Of a stretch of 47,604 bases of DNA, positions 34,362 to 39,688 are shown piece by piece; the stretch's first letter is position 1, and each line of letters opens with the position of its first letter. A program made the translations under genes and the position numbers. This DNA comes from an uncultured Flavobacteriales bacterium. GTDB taxonomy: Bacteria > Bacteroidota > Bacteroidia > Flavobacteriales > BACL11. Below the pieces are notes generated by a model, which had not been told where the DNA came from, ran no database searches, and worked only from the letters and a program-made list of their open reading frames with translations. Where the stretch lies: assembly GCA_905478765.1 (NCBI GenBank), contig CAJQJY010000014.1, positions 1-47,604 on the forward strand. Direction: 5' to 3'.

Positions 34362-35103
34362 GATTTGTAAGTTTTATAAAATCATCAACTGATAATTGTT
34401 CAGCTCGTAAAGCTAATAAATCTATAATCTCATTTCCATTTATTATCTCAAATGGTTTCATTGCATTTTTCAAAGTTTTCCTCCTTTGATTATATCCTGC
34501 TTTTACTACCCTTCTAAATTTTTTCTCGTCAACCGTCAGTGCTTTTCTGCTATTTCTTACTAATTTTATTACTCCTGATTTTACTTTTGGAGGTGGGTTG
34601 AATACATGTTCATCAACTGTAAAGCAATACTCAACATCATAAAAAGCTTGAAGAAAAACGGAAAGTATTCCTCTTTTTTTACCTTTTTTACAGGCAATTC
34701 TTTCTGCTACTTCCTTTTGAAACATTCCAACAACTTCAGGAATTTGATCTCTGTTTTCAAATGCTTTAAATAATATTTGAGAGGAGATATTGTAAGGAAA
34801 ATTTCCAATTAAGGAAAAGCTGTACGGGTATTGTTCTTTTAAATCAAGCTGTAGAAAATCACCTTCATGAATTTCTAATTCAGGGTAGTTTAATCTTAGA
34901 TAAAACACACTTTCTCTGTCAATTTCTACTACTTCTGTTATGCAATCTTTCTTTACTAGGTATTGAGTTAGAACACCCATTCCTGGCCCAATTTCTACCA
35001 CATTATTTGCTTTATCTGATAATAAATTTGTGATATCAAATGCAATTTGCTCATCATTTAAAAAATGTTGACCAAGATGTTTTTTAGCTCTTACATTTTT
35101 CAT
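34351..35103 (-). CDS. rsmA: 16S rRNA (A1518/A1519-N6) dimethyltransferase
   Basis: RsmA (KsgA) dimethylates two adjacent adenines near the 3' end of 16S rRNA, a late step of 30S assembly. The 250-aa protein has KKHLGQHFLNDEQIA (7-21), the SAM-binding VVEIGPGMGVLTQYL (about 35-49), the catalytic NFPYNISS (NLPY-type motif, about 100-107), and the C-terminal helical region with FNPPPKVKSGVI and NQRRKTLKNAMK. The start overlaps the ABC ATPase stop by one base (TAATG at 35101-35105). It overlaps mgtE by 11 nt. Confidence 0.97.
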   Translation of the reverse strand: MKNVRAKKHLGQHFLNDEQIAFDITNLLSDKANNVVEIGPGMGVLTQYLVKKDCITEVVEIDRESVFYLRLNYPELEIHEGDFLQLDLKEQYPYSFSLIGNFPYNISSQILFKAFENRDQIPEVVGMFQKEVAERIACKKGKKRGILSVFLQAFYDVEYCFTVDEHVFNPPPKVKSGVIKLVRNSRKALTVDEKKFRRVVKAGYNQRRKTLKNAMKPFEIINGNEIIDLLALRAEQLSVDDFIKLTNHVR

Positions 35104-35852
35104 TAAACATTCTTTATTCTTTTAAATAATTCTGATGCAAATACAAAGTCATTTAAATCTTTGTTGTCTGATTTAATTAAATCTTCTTTGCTTCCTGTCC
35201 ACGAAATTTCTCCTTTATTGATGTATGCAATATGTTCTCCAATTTCCATAACTGAGTTCATATCATGTGTGTTTACAATAGTTGTAATATTGTATTCTAT
35301 TGTAATTTCTTGAATCAAGTTATCAATTAAAATTGAAGTTTTTGGATCTAGCCCAGAGTTTGGTTCATCACAAAAAAGGTATTTAGGCTGCATAACTATT
35401 GCCCTTGCAATGGCAACTCTTTTTTTCATTCCACCACTCAGTTCAGATGGCATTAGATAGTTTTTACCATCTAGGTTTACTCTCTTCAAACAAAAGTTTA
35501 CTCTTTCTAATTTTTCATCTTCTGTTTTCTCTGTAAACATAGTTAAAGGGAACATGATGTTTTCCTCAACAGTCATGTAATCGTAGAGCGCACCTCCTTG
35601 AAAAAGCATTCCAACTTCTTGACGTAAAGCTTTCTTCTCTTTTCGTTTCATTTTATCTACATCTATTCCGTCAAAAAGAACTGAGCCATTGTCGTTATTG
35701 TACAGCCCAACTAAAATTTTCAGCAAAGTAGTTTTTCCTGAGCCACTCTCTCCAATAATTAGATTTGTTTTTCCTTGTTCAAACTTGTGTGTCATGTCTT
35801 TTAAAACATGATTATCTCCAAAGTATTTTTCTATATTTTTAATTTCTATCAT
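35103..35852 (-). CDS. mlaF: ABC transporter ATP-binding protein, MlaF type
   Basis: The ATPase of an Mla-like phospholipid transporter that keeps outer-membrane lipid asymmetry or moves lipids between the membranes. The 249-aa protein has Walker A GESGSGKTT (34-42), Q-loop LFQGGALYDYMTVEENI, ABC signature ELSGGMKKRVAIARAI and Walker B KYLFCDEPNSGLDP, followed by the H-loop (VNTHDMNSVMEIG). FQGGALYDYMTV and GGMKKRV are typical of MlaF. It overlaps the permease by 4 nt. No MlaD-type periplasmic gene follows; rsmA does. Confidence 0.9.
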   Translation of the reverse strand: MIEIKNIEKYFGDNHVLKDMTHKFEQGKTNLIIGESGSGKTTLLKILVGLYNNDNGSVLFDGIDVDKMKRKEKKALRQEVGMLFQGGALYDYMTVEENIMFPLTMFTEKTEDEKLERVNFCLKRVNLDGKNYLMPSELSGGMKKRVAIARAIVMQPKYLFCDEPNSGLDPKTSILIDNLIQEITIEYNITTIVNTHDMNSVMEIGEHIAYINKGEISWTGSKEDLIKSDNKDLNDFVFASELFKRIKNV

Positions 35853-36589
35853 GCTAAAAGAAGATTTGTAAGGATAAAATTAAAAAAGAGAATTAGAATA
35901 CTACTAGATACTACTGCCTTTGTGCTGGATTTTCCAACTGCTATTGAGCCTCCTTTTGTAAAGTAACCAAAATAAGATGATACTGAGGCTATGATAAAAG
36001 CAAAAACAACTGTCTTTATTAAAGAATAGGTTACATAAAAAGGGGTGAATTCATATTTTAATCCTGATAGAAAATCTGCAGTTGTAACATCTACTGATAA
36101 CCCTCCAATCCAAGCACCAATCATACCTATACCCATGCTTATTATTACTAAAAAGGGAAAAAAGAATACTGTTGCAATGATTTTTGGAAGGATTAAAAAT
36201 GAAGCTGAGTTTACTCCCATTATATCAAGAGCATCTAACTGTTCGCTAACCCTCATGCTACCAAGTTCAGAGGCAATGCTTGATCCTACTTTCCCCGCTA
36301 GAATTAGCGATATCATGGTTGGTGAAAATTCTAAGATTAATGAGTCACGGCTTGCTAATCCAACTAAGTATTTTGGGAGTATTGGACTACTCATATTAAT
36401 AGCAGTTTGGATGCTAACAACCCCTCCTACAAAAAAGGAAATGAAAAGTACAATTCCTATTGAGTTAATCCCAACTTTCTCAATTTCTAACAATAATTGC
36501 TTCCAAAAAACTTTAAATTTTTCAGGCTTACTAATCACTTTCTTCATCATGATAAAGTATTGTCCTAGATGTTTAAGTATTTTTAACAT
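35849..36589 (-). CDS. mlaE: ABC transporter permease, MlaE type
   Basis: The inner-membrane permease of the Mla-like system. The 246-aa protein has five or six hydrophobic segments and the strong MlaE signatures FISFFVGGVVSIQTA (about 49-63), SPTMISLILAGKVGSSIASELGSMRVSEQLDAL (about 89-121) and ISMGIGMIGAWIGG. An amphipathic N-terminal helix (HLGQYFIMMKKVISKPEKFKVF) fits the family. It is the first gene of a minus-strand operon running mlaE-mlaF-rsmA-mgtE-dehydrogenase. The divergent small lipoprotein ORF starts 42 nt away. No perfect -7 element is seen for this strand. Confidence 0.92.
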   Translation of the reverse strand: MLKILKHLGQYFIMMKKVISKPEKFKVFWKQLLLEIEKVGINSIGIVLFISFFVGGVVSIQTAINMSSPILPKYLVGLASRDSLILEFSPTMISLILAGKVGSSIASELGSMRVSEQLDALDIMGVNSASFLILPKIIATVFFFPFLVIISMGIGMIGAWIGGLSVDVTTADFLSGLKYEFTPFYVTYSLIKTVVFAFIIASVSSYFGYFTKGGSIAVGKSSTKAVVSSSILILFFNFILTNLLLA

Positions 36590-36622
36590 TTGAGTAGTAA
36601 TAAAGTAATTTGTTTAAATTTG
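36589..36622 (+). promoter_or_regulatory. Promoter of the small lipoprotein gene (TTTG, 22 nt, TAAATTTG)
   Basis: TTTG at 36589-36592 and TAAATTTG at 36615-36622, 22 nt apart, match both elements of the Bacteroidota promoter. The -7 box ends 8 nt before the small ORF ATG. It could also feed feoAB further downstream. Confidence 0.68.
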
Positions 36623-36630
36623 CAATACTT

Positions 36631-36750
36631 ATGAAAATACAAAAATATCATCTTTTATTTATTTTTGCTTTGTTTTTACTTACTTCTTGCGGAACAATAA
36701 AGAAAAATGGGTGCAATACTTGTCCTAATTTTTCATCAAACGCTAATTAA
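36631..36750 (+). CDS. Small CxxC lipoprotein, 39 aa
   Basis: This short ORF has clear lipoprotein features: MKIQKY, a hydrophobic run LLFIFALFLL, then the lipobox LTSC with the lipidated Cys at residue 20. The mature peptide is only 20 residues and has a CNTC motif (Cys28, Cys31), so up to three cysteines including the anchor. It is preceded by a good two-element promoter and lies 48 nt upstream of feoA on the same strand. It is well supported as a gene by the signal sequence plus the promoter. I do not recognise a family. Binding of iron or another metal is speculation from CxxC and the neighbouring feoAB. Confidence 0.62.
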   Translation: MKIQKYHLLFIFALFLLTSCGTIKKNGCNTCPNFSSNAN

Positions 36751-36765
36751 TTTCAAGTAATTTAG

Positions 36766-36794
36766 TTTAGAATTCTTCTAAATAGTTATATTCG
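36766..36794 (+). promoter_or_regulatory. feoA -7 element with candidate metal-responsive operator
   Basis: TATATTCG (36787-36794) is a one-mismatch -7 element ending only 4 nt before the feoA ATG. Immediately upstream is a perfect 7-3-7 inverted repeat: TTTAGAA (36766-36772), TTC, TTCTAAA (36776-36782). Its position between the promoter elements suits a repressor site such as Fur or a DtxR-type protein, but it does not match either consensus closely. It may also form a weak hairpin. Confidence 0.42.
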
Positions 36795-36798
36795 CGCC

Positions 36799-37032
36799 AT
36801 GAAAATTTTAGCGTATTTAAGTATAGGAGCAAAGGGAGAAATGCTTGATATTTCAGATGATTTATTGGAACAGAAATTATTAGAAATGGGATGCACTCCT
36901 GGTGAGCAGTTTGAAGTTGTCCGTAAAGCACCTTTTGGAGGGCCAATAGCTATATTAATTTCGTCATATGTATTAAGTATTAGAAAAGAAGATGCGATGA
37001 GTATTAAGGTTAAATTATTAGAGAATGAGTAG
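36799..37032 (+). CDS. feoA: Ferrous iron transport protein FeoA
   Basis: FeoA is a small SH3-like cytosolic partner of the FeoB iron channel. The 77-aa protein shows the family pattern: an N-terminal strand with SIGAKGEM, the helix LEQKLLEMGCTPGEQFEVVRKAPFGGPIAILI (about 23-54), and the final strands with LSIRKEDAMSIKVK. It overlaps feoB by 8 nt, so the two are coupled. The short distance from the -7 element (4 nt) suggests a leaderless or near-leaderless mRNA, unless it is transcribed from the lipoprotein promoter upstream. Confidence 0.95.
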   Translation: MKILAYLSIGAKGEMLDISDDLLEQKLLEMGCTPGEQFEVVRKAPFGGPIAILISSYVLSIRKEDAMSIKVKLLENE

Positions 37033-39100
37033 TAAAACTTTAAAAATTGCTCTTGCAGGTAATCCTAATTCAGGAAAAACTACTCTCTTTAATGCACTTA
37101 CAGGTTTAAAACAAAAAGTTGGAAATTATCCAGGAATTACTGTAGAAAAGAAAACTGGGAAGGCAATTCTATCAGAAAAAATTCTTGCAGAAATTATAGA
37201 TTTACCTGGAACATATTCTTTATTTCCAAAGTCAATGGATGAGCAAGTTGCGCAACAAACAATCTGTAATAATGATAATGAAGATTATCCAGATATAACT
37301 GTCGTTATAGCTGATTCCACTAATTTAAGGCGTTCAATATTTTTGCTTACTCAAATTATTGACTTGAATATGGTGGTTGTTTTGGCCTTAAATATGGTTG
37401 ATATTGCTACTAAAAAAGGAATTGTTATAGATGTTAATTTACTTTCAAGAGAATTAGGAATTCCTGTTGTTGCAATAAATGCAAGGCAAGGAAAGGGGAT
37501 TGTTTCTTTGAAGGAGATAATTATTAATTCTATTGATGCAAAACCTAAATCTCCTTTTTTAGAAGTGGATAAATTATTTAAAGGAGTAATTGAGCAAGCA
37601 AATAAAATTAGAGGAGTAGAAAATAATTTTGCTTCTTTTATGGCGCTCTGTAAGCAAAAATTAAGTGGCGAAATTGATTATAGATGTGCTTTAAATCAAC
37701 TTAGTAAAAAAGAAGAAATTATTCCTGAAAGAGCTCAGGCTAAGGAAACAGTAAAGCGATATGCTCAGATAGATAAAGTAATAAATTCTACAGTAAAAAA
37801 AGGATCCCCTATTGGAAAGTATATGCTTACAAAAAAGATTGATGATGTTTTGATTCATCCAATTCTTGGATATGTTGTTTTCTTATCAATTTTATTTTTA
37901 CTTTTTCAGGCCGTATTTTCTTGGTCAGCATACCCAATGGAATTGATTGATGTATTGTTTACAAATTTACAGCAGTTTACAGCTGATTCAATGCCTAAAG
38001 GAATGCTGAATGACTTAGTGGTAAATGGTATTTTAGCTGGTCTTGGAGGGATTGTTATATTTGTTCCACAAATAGCATTTTTATTTGCATTTATTGCTTT
38101 TCTGGAAGATACAGGTTATATGGCTCGGGTAAGTTTTATTACTGACAAACTTCTTAGGGGAGTGGGTTTAAACGGCAGGTCAATTATTCCTTTATTGAGT
38201 GGCGCTGCGTGTGCTGTTCCTGCAATAATGTCGGCTCGTACAATCTCTTCATGGAAGGAAAGATTGATTACTATTATGGTTACTCCATTAATGAGTTGTT
38301 CAGCTCGTTTACCCGTTTATACTTTAATTATTTCTTTAGTTATTCCAGCTGATGAATTTTTAGGATTTAACTTGCAAGGCTTAGTAATGATGGTATTTTA
38401 TTTAATAGGCTTTGTGTCTGCAATCGTAATTGCATTCTTAATGAAGTTTATTATAAAGTCAAAAGGGGAATCCTATTATATAATGGAAATGCCTTCTTAT
38501 AAAATTCCTGATTGGAAAACTGTACTTTATACTATTATTGAAAAAGTAAAAGTGTTTTTATTTGATGCGGGTAAGATAATTATCGCAATTTCAATTGTAC
38601 TTTGGGTGCTTTCATCTTTTGCTCCTGGCAAAAAGTTTGAGCAAATTGAACAAAAGTGGGCAGGTATTGAAAATGCAGAAATGCAGATTTCATCTGAAAA
38701 ATTAGAACATTCTTATGCAGGAATCATAGGAAAATCAATTGAGCCAGCAATTAAACCACTTGGTTTTGATTGGAAAATAGGAATTTCTTTACTTACTTCT
38801 TTTGCAGCTCGTGAAGTCTTTGTAGGAACTATGTCTACTATATATAGCGTTGGTGATGATGATATTCGATCAATTCAGAAAAGATTGGCTGATGTCAAGA
38901 GGCAGGATGGCGAGAGATTTTTTACGCCAGCAGTAGGAATCTCATTGATGCTTTTTTATGCTTTTGCAATGCAATGTATGAGTACTCTTGCGATTGTGTA
39001 TAGAGAAACAAATCATATTAAATGGCCAATCATTCAGTTTTTGTATATGGGTGTAATGGCTTATTTGTCTAGTTTTATAGCATTTCAATTATTAAGCTAA
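37025..39100 (+). CDS. feoB: Ferrous iron transporter FeoB
   Basis: The inner-membrane Fe2+ transporter with an N-terminal G domain. The 691-aa protein has G1 GNPNSGKT (12-19), Thr39 in the switch I segment (NYPGITVEKKTG), G3 DLPG (59-62) and G4 NMVD (123-126). A helical GDI-like spacer follows, then the membrane part with two Gate repeats: SGAACAVPAIMSARTI and SCSARLPVYTLI, each with the conserved Cys, then FAAREVFVGTMSTIYSVGD. It is somewhat shorter than the E. coli protein (773 aa). No FeoC follows; the next gene, 3 nt after the stop, is a SprT-like protein. Confidence 0.96.
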   Translation: MSSKTLKIALAGNPNSGKTTLFNALTGLKQKVGNYPGITVEKKTGKAILSEKILAEIIDLPGTYSLFPKSMDEQVAQQTICNNDNEDYPDITVVIADSTNLRRSIFLLTQIIDLNMVVVLALNMVDIATKKGIVIDVNLLSRELGIPVVAINARQGKGIVSLKEIIINSIDAKPKSPFLEVDKLFKGVIEQANKIRGVENNFASFMALCKQKLSGEIDYRCALNQLSKKEEIIPERAQAKETVKRYAQIDKVINSTVKKGSPIGKYMLTKKIDDVLIHPILGYVVFLSILFLLFQAVFSWSAYPMELIDVLFTNLQQFTADSMPKGMLNDLVVNGILAGLGGIVIFVPQIAFLFAFIAFLEDTGYMARVSFITDKLLRGVGLNGRSIIPLLSGAACAVPAIMSARTISSWKERLITIMVTPLMSCSARLPVYTLIISLVIPADEFLGFNLQGLVMMVFYLIGFVSAIVIAFLMKFIIKSKGESYYIMEMPSYKIPDWKTVLYTIIEKVKVFLFDAGKIIIAISIVLWVLSSFAPGKKFEQIEQKWAGIENAEMQISSEKLEHSYAGIIGKSIEPAIKPLGFDWKIGISLLTSFAAREVFVGTMSTIYSVGDDDIRSIQKRLADVKRQDGERFFTPAVGISLMLFYAFAMQCMSTLAIVYRETNHIKWPIIQFLYMGVMAYLSSFIAFQLLS

Positions 39101-39103
39101 ATC

Positions 39104-39688
39104 ATGACCTTTCACTCATTCGTTCCAGATAAAAGTATTGATCTATTGCAATGTTGGGTTGATGAGTTAAACGTAACAGTAGTTGTATCAAATCCTAGAA
39201 AAACTAAGTTAGGTGATTTTAAAGTTAGAGGGAATAAGCTAATTGTTAGTGTGAATAATAATCTGAACAAGTATGCTTTCCTGATTACTTTTACTCATGA
39301 GTTAGCTCATGCTTTTGTCTTTAAAAAACATACAAACTCGCTTAAACCTCATGGTAATAGTTGGAGGCTGACTTTCAAGTCTATGATGTTAAACTTTTTA
39401 ACTCCTGATTACTTTCCTGAGGATATTTTAAAAGTTTTGAGTAATCATATTATTATTCCAAAAGCATCAACTTTTTCTGATGTTGAATTGTCCAAAGTTT
39501 TGAGAAATTATGATTCAAGAAACGCACTTACTATTTCTGATTTATTAGAAGGTGTTATATTTAAACTGAGTAATGGAAAAGTTTTTGAAAAAGGAATAAA
39601 ATTGAGGAAGCGTTTTAAGTGTATTGAAATTAAAACAAATAAAGTTTATTTGTTTCATCCGCTTGCAGAAGTTGAAATTGTACAATAA
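39104..39688 (+). CDS. SprT-like zinc metallopeptidase-fold protein
   Basis: A 194-aa protein with an HExxH zinc motif (HELAH, 65-69) and a likely third ligand His83 in KPHGNSW, the SprT/Spartan pattern. The N-terminal strand-rich region (VTVVVSNPRKTKLGDFKV) fits the family. The C-terminal half (about 115-194) has the conserved strands KLSNGKVFEKGIKLRKRFKCIEI, but the four-Cys zinc ribbon found in E. coli SprT is absent. The function of bacterial members is poorly known. It starts 3 nt after feoB and precedes manC, a pairing I know from other Flavobacteriales. Confidence 0.83.
   Translation: MTFHSFVPDKSIDLLQCWVDELNVTVVVSNPRKTKLGDFKVRGNKLIVSVNNNLNKYAFLITFTHELAHAFVFKKHTNSLKPHGNSWRLTFKSMMLNFLTPDYFPEDILKVLSNHIIIPKASTFSDVELSKVLRNYDSRNALTISDLLEGVIFKLSNGKVFEKGIKLRKRFKCIEIKTNKVYLFHPLAEVEIVQ

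Follow-up and report, generated by a model that had tools for sequence, protein, structure and literature searches.

The window, i.e. the whole stretch of 47,604 nucleotides that was analysed, carries a very short gene for a lipoprotein between a divergent mlaF-mlaE pair and the ferrous iron transport genes, in the order mlaF-mlaE <> lipoprotein > feoA > feoB > sprT-like. The features of this region are the following:

35103..35852, reverse strand: ABC ATPase gene, named mlaF from its position adjoining mlaE
35849..36589, reverse strand: mlaE (lipid ABC permease), divergent neighbour (PF02405, E 8.2e-62)
36589..36592, forward strand: candidate -33 box TTTG, which shares one base with the mlaE start codon and shows weak conservation
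36615..36622, forward strand: -7 promoter box TAAATTTG of the lipoprotein gene, a box that relatives have too
36631..36750, forward strand: gene of the tiny lipoprotein, 39 codons and a stop codon, ATG...TAA, MKIQKYHLLFIFALFLLTSCGTIKKNGCNTCPNFSSNAN
36631..36687, forward strand: signal peptide MKIQKYHLLFIFALFLLTS, ending in the lipobox LTSC (with Cys20)
36688..36747, forward strand: mature peptide CGTIKKNGCNTCPNFSSNAN, C20-N39, with the predicted lipidated Cys (36688-36690), the Cys pair (36712-36714 and 36721-36723) and Pro (36724-36726)
36766..36782, forward strand: palindrome TTTAGAATTCTTCTAAA, conserved before feoA, for which it is a putative metalloregulator operator
36787..36794, forward strand: -7 box located 4 nt 5' of the feoA ATG, TATATTCG here and TATATTTG in a number of relatives
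36799..37032, forward strand: feoA (PF04023, E 3.7e-17)
37025..39100, forward strand: feoB (TIGR00437, 528.6 bits, cut-off 315.65)
39104..39688, forward strand: SprT-like gene, belonging to the recurrent block (PF10263, 24.5 bits, slightly under the cut-off of 25.6)

An earlier note on this DNA had described a complete lipoprotein signal with the lipobox LTSC, a mature peptide of 20 residues containing CNTC and a same-strand position 48 nt before feoA. The first two are read directly from the sequence, and the gap between the lipoprotein stop and the feoA ATG (36799) is indeed 48 nt, FeoA and FeoB both being confirmed by their models. The strong two-element promoter proposed at the same time holds in part: both elements are present, with 22 nt between TTTG and TAAATTTG in the window, and the -7 box recurs in relatives, a TANNTTTG box lying at most 12 nt from the peptide start in 54 of the 136 genomes considered below and at most 40 nt from it in 79, but TTTG is rarely conserved, since inspection by eye of 28 loci finds it at the same place in two further genera (L017, L020) besides the window and the two relatives closest to it. 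Regarding the ATPase (35103..35852), the NCBIfam MlaF model matches at E 1.9e-48, under its cut-off, and four other ABC ATPase models score slightly above it, likewise under cut-off.

The stretch 36631-36750 almost certainly codes for a protein, and belongs to a family of tiny lipoproteins that spans the class. Across 16 aligned sequences from the genus and the family, pN/pS is 0.257 for the whole ORF while the two alternative frames give 1.26 and 1.72, and third codon positions hold 64% of the differences (column permutation over the 16 sequences, p<=5e-5). The ratio amounts to 0.137 in the mature part (codons 20-35) vs. 0.455 in the signal (codons 1-19); purifying selection being strongest in the mature codons, the mature part is what selection keeps. 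Among 40 genomes including the window's own, 35 give a match at E<=1, though often a weak one, and in 16, again counting its own, the match reaches E<1e-12, while the peptide query returns a single match at E<=0.001 in the window's own genome, namely itself. The alternative that the gap between mlaE and feoA holds a spurious ORF or a regulatory leader, with no functional peptide, could call on the shortness of the ORF, the incomplete conservation of the promoter and the lack of any Pfam or NCBIfam family above cut-off. It is nonetheless hardly credible, as the selection is frame-specific, as homologous peptides are also found in other gene neighbourhoods, and as Rfam gives no match in 36400-37100; a search for tandem repeats at the lipoprotein region likewise found nothing. 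The view of the earlier note that this is a genuine small gene, easily missed, is thus borne out by frame-specific purifying selection together with conserved Cys positions, the loss of frame and Cys in relatives, which it had named as grounds for dismissal, not being what is seen: both are kept. The gene is presumably translated.

By a strict reading pattern, peptides of the family were read in 136 genomes from 31 families, all of one class. Of 141 genomes entered, five were left out (G217, G609, G526, G411 and G408), four of which show a recognisable peptide, G217 being the one without; loci L201, L203, L204, L206 and L220-L226 had been set aside beforehand as other peptides. In the profile searches, 352 of 393 genomes of the order match at E<=0.05, many of the matches listed covering the signal peptide only and being excluded from the count (good order-level matches left unfetched include G057, G131, G322 and G193), and 117 of 256 genomes of the class match at E<=0.001, a mixed set. 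At the level of the phylum, 11 of 148 genomes (own included, the non-class share being unstated) reach E<=1e-4, and none of these is shown to lie outside the class. The lipoprotein is dispensable, as the peptide was not found beside mlaE in 24 of 27 genomes inspected, which were mostly chosen as profile-negative, including 12 of 12 in the families f3 and f6.

The peptides share a predicted lipidated Cys, a short K/R linker and then C-x(1,2)-C-P in 135 of the 136, with K/R in the linker throughout, C-x(1,2)-C-P-x-[FW] in 110 and varied tail sequences; as the reading pattern itself includes C-x(1,2)-C-[P/F], this near-invariance is partly built in. Independent support for the motif comes from alignments built from similarity matches and the place beside mlaE: the residues C, C, C and P are invariant in such an alignment of 17 sequences (A2), and also in a larger one of 50 sequences (A4), the members of which were partly chosen by motif. 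The Cys pair is therefore kept, but the CxxC spacing emphasised in the earlier note is not fixed, CxCP (103 peptides) being commoner than CxxCP (32), besides one CxCF. The lipobox, LTSC in the window, is present in all 136 peptides, where it was a selection criterion, and was picked a few residues too early in a few of them, e.g. in G045, G043 and G052. No convincing family was found by Pfam and NCBIfam for 35 members, the window peptide likewise staying under cut-offs (Pfam LPAM_1, 13.1 bits for a cut-off of 20); a plasmid search gave no convincing match to the peptide, and the literature, judged on titles and the start of abstracts with most subscription papers outside reach, yielded no paper concerning it. 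While tiny lipoproteins are known as a kind, this family is without a match in the two libraries searched.

Around the peptide, the gene order of the window recurs widely. Each of the 26 nearest loci (L001-L026) has a divergent mlaE, and feoA lies downstream in 16 of them. Over the 136 genomes, mlaE is divergent in 97 (21 of 31 families), at a median distance of 60 nt as measured to the similarity match, and feoA or feoB lies downstream on the same strand in 56 (17 of 31 families), three loci having less than 300 nt of downstream sequence (G061, G277, G499); both neighbours are found in 42 genomes, mlaE only in 55, feo only in 14 and neither in 25, and 12 families have both adjacencies. Among the 42 genomes with both neighbours, the SprT-like gene is present in each of the 14 (8 families) with at least 4.5 kb of downstream sequence in hand, so that the window order reappears across the class, probably as the ancestral state, no tree having been built. 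The block can break on either side: the peptide stays by mlaE with feoB elsewhere in 15 genomes of 6 families (G114, one of them, having a merely partial feoB match, below cut-off) and by feo with mlaE elsewhere in 14 genomes of 5 families, so that neither mlaE nor feo is thereby shown to be its partner. In 15 genomes, 14 of which belong to the window's own family, an ArsP_2-like gene (PF11449; L031, 4512-5618, for instance) fills the feo slot after the lipoprotein, as assigned by Pfam for three genomes and by similarity for the others. At some other loci, the divergent neighbour is VCA0040-like (L187, L199, L217, L179) or carries a VTT domain (L184) and adjoins a shikimate-dehydrogenase-type gene, the VCA0040-like and VTT-domain genes swapping places at lipoprotein loci.

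The same-strand feo neighbourhood supposed by the earlier note to reflect a link with ferrous iron transport, and possibly cotranscription, is therefore widespread, but a role dedicated to the feo unit is weakened by carriers in which feoB is undetected. A Feo accessory, i.e. a periplasmic Cys peptide handing Fe2+ to FeoB or keeping iron reduced, would agree with the 56 genomes from 17 families having feo downstream, with the peptide staying by feo in the 14 genomes where mlaE is elsewhere, with the ArsP_2 alternative in the slot also being annotated as a metal or arsenic exporter, and with a feoB located some 6.2 kb downstream of the peptide, on its strand, in G478 and G558, two genomes of the class with neither neighbour. 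However, 46 of 80 genomes with a lipoprotein match, including 31 of the 64 of good quality, yielded no feoB match, the 80 having been picked as feo non-adjacent or, for ten of them, as members of feo-less groups with peptide and neighbourhood unread (G322, G193, G273, G209, G221, G297, G233, G181, G189 and G057), five of the eight f1 bins being 69-81% complete. Leaving out these ten and two more genomes outside the tally (G217, G408), feoB is undetected for 36 of 68 tallied peptides without adjacent feo (7 families) and present for 32. Whereas a component of the Feo operon would always accompany feoAB and be lost with it, the lipoprotein persists where feoB is undetected, so it is probably more than a part of iron uptake alone. 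Considering also that the feo palindrome and -7 box sit 3' of the lipoprotein gene, the Feo accessory is an unlikely reading, and it was rejected as the best one on account of the 46 genomes; an iron or redox role of the lipoprotein is a guess. Another tiny Cys-bearing membrane peptide near feo, occurring also in Bacteroidetes, is the FeoB-associated Cys-rich protein PF12669, which, in the excerpt of PMC8749426, lies downstream of feoB with a Cx3-5Cx2-3Cx6-8C pattern, whereas the window peptide lies upstream of feoA with a lipobox and one Cys pair; PF12669 gives no match on the window peptide.

The feo genes have control signals separate from the lipoprotein gene. The palindrome between the peptide and feoA reads TTTAGA-N5-TCTAAA and is found, with at most one mismatch, in 38 of the 55 genomes having feo within 400 nt vs. 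1 of the 81 others, the stretch searched being the gap to feoA in the former and the 200 nt after the peptide in the latter. Its single exact occurrence in the window's genome was rejected as evidence in its own right, as a backward-read control pattern is equally frequent (once). In this genome, the Fe_dep_repress family has a single match, which is the putative ligand of the palindrome. With feoA having its own palindrome and -7 box, cotranscription with feoAB was rejected as the main reading, being unnecessary, but read-through from the lipoprotein gene into feoAB may occur since no terminator was found in the search of the lipoprotein-feoA region. Given the position of the -7 box with G at -5, as described in an excerpt of PMC6847099, the lipoprotein transcript is predicted to have a leader of 4 nt and the feoA transcript none; such short or absent leaders would be unusual, as leaderless mRNAs represent 5.5% in F. 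psychrophilum according to the portion of PMC9723704 at hand. The feoA start (window 36766-36794) would thus be leaderless, and possibly metal-regulated.

On the other side of the gene, the recurrent divergence from mlaE (97 genomes, 21 of 31 families, median 60 nt) could designate the peptide as a periplasmic or outer-membrane lipoprotein partner of the Mla-type lipid transport encoded there, in line with all 40 of the 40 genomes lacking an adjacent mlaE having it elsewhere and with four f51 genomes in which the divergent neighbour is VCA0040-like or a VTT-domain gene (by Pfam for L187 and L184, by clustering for the others), two families that we take to be undecaprenyl-phosphate, i.e. lipid-carrier, translocases. 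The presence of mlaE says little, though, as it is also found in 27 of 30 genomes mostly chosen as lacking the lipoprotein, and the linkage is often broken, as in the 14 genomes with feo only and the 25 with neither neighbour. For this last reason, a role dedicated to Mla was not adopted as the best reading and stays as a rival, a rather unlikely one.

With slightly better than even confidence, the whole is best explained by a periplasm-facing lipoprotein that acts through its Cys pair within an envelope complex, as a subunit or as an assembly factor, and is not dedicated to Feo. The Sec and lipoprotein pathways are predicted to export the peptide and acylate Cys20, and it would finally face the periplasm, most likely anchored in the outer membrane. 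Such a placement follows from the signal, the lipobox, the absence of Asp+2 in all 136 peptides and the absence, by a simple pattern, of an acidic lipoprotein export signal (LES) right after the Cys in any of the 136, the LES rules for surface-exposed lipoproteins being those of an excerpt of PMC5080379; K-E-D occurs further along the linker in G054, G063 and G448, which might conceivably constitute a surface-export signal in these three. The working part would be the short stretch next to the predicted lipid anchor, namely the basic linker and C-x(1,2)-C-P-x-aromatic. That this block is conserved while the tail varies is suggestive of docking at the surface of the membrane, most likely on a larger envelope complex, and the Cys pair would act there as a disulfide or thiol. 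Localisation and thiol role are inferences, as is the larger partner. On this explanation, the feoAB neighbourhood would reflect an ancient gene arrangement that many lineages retain. Taken alone, the last step, in which the peptide would be a small stabilising subunit or assembly factor working in the manner of LptM or VirB7, is a tentative proposal by analogy.

Small lipoproteins of the VirB7/TraV type can be disulfide-linked to a larger partner, and the window peptide is likewise a small lipoprotein. None of the scanned neighbours in the window is a secretion gene, and among 35 members one TraV match (E 0.0017) and one LvhB7 match (E 0.0065) were obtained, too weak over 35 scans, so that neither a convincing model nor a secretion context places the family there. 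In E. coli, LptM (YifL) is an outer-membrane lipoprotein of about 6 kDa acting on the disulfide maturation of an outer-membrane machine, as far as the excerpt of PMC10567701 goes; the window peptide resembles it as a very small lipoprotein with a conserved stretch by the lipobox Cys, but differs in taxa and neighbours, making LptM a precedent of working rather than a demonstrated relative. The LptM model NF047847 gives 12.5 bits on the window peptide, over residues 1-21 only and for a cut-off of 27.7, and 2 matches over the 35 members (best E 0.0056).

Against the best explanation, the recurrent mlaE and feoAB neighbourhood could be an undervalued functional link, and the Cys pair could equally bind metal. 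Regarding the latter, a metal or thiol buffer at the membrane without a fixed partner, its Cys pair coordinating Cu(I), Zn or Fe and possibly doing so as a dimer, would fit the alternation of CxC and CxxC, as presumably allowed in metal knuckles, and the metal transporters adjoining the peptide gene in many genomes. As the peptide has merely two free Cys, accompanied by a conserved Pro and an aromatic residue, and as the scanned neighbours are mixed in the genomes with neither mlaE nor feo, such a buffer appears quite unlikely.

So small a gene is easily skipped, yet in 31 families of one class it shows strong conservation of its motif and a recurring gene order, and the lipoprotein is a concrete and testable candidate for a missing small subunit of the Bacteroidota envelope. 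Neighbourhood alone would have merged it with the ferrous iron transporter, which has its own control site, and the two are separated here. More broadly, and as an improbable extension at this stage, Bacteroidia might carry a class-specific set of tiny thiol lipoproteins as membrane-anchored disulfide or metal sites for envelope machines, comprising the C-x(1,2)-CP family, a KKCDGxKKIKxxMW family, CPGV peptides and CPAY peptides; if true, the window gene would be a member of this set, linked to lipid transport and ferrous iron import through an ancient gene order.

Besides the window gene, its genome encodes a second tiny lipoprotein of 36 aa, ending in KKCDGGKKIKTQMW (L092, G000:C3:153871-153948, reverse strand), directly 3' of a gene for an 899-aa protein bearing a T9SS sorting tail, and similar peptides occur in L093 and L095. 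A further tiny lipoprotein bears CPGV (L091, G000:C7:49247-49348), L094 and L110 being similar with CPGV or CEGV, and another bears CPAY (L042, 7545-7685), a motif also seen in L203, L206, L220-L222, L224 and L225; at both L091 and L042, the divergent gene is of the uracil-DNA glycosylase type.
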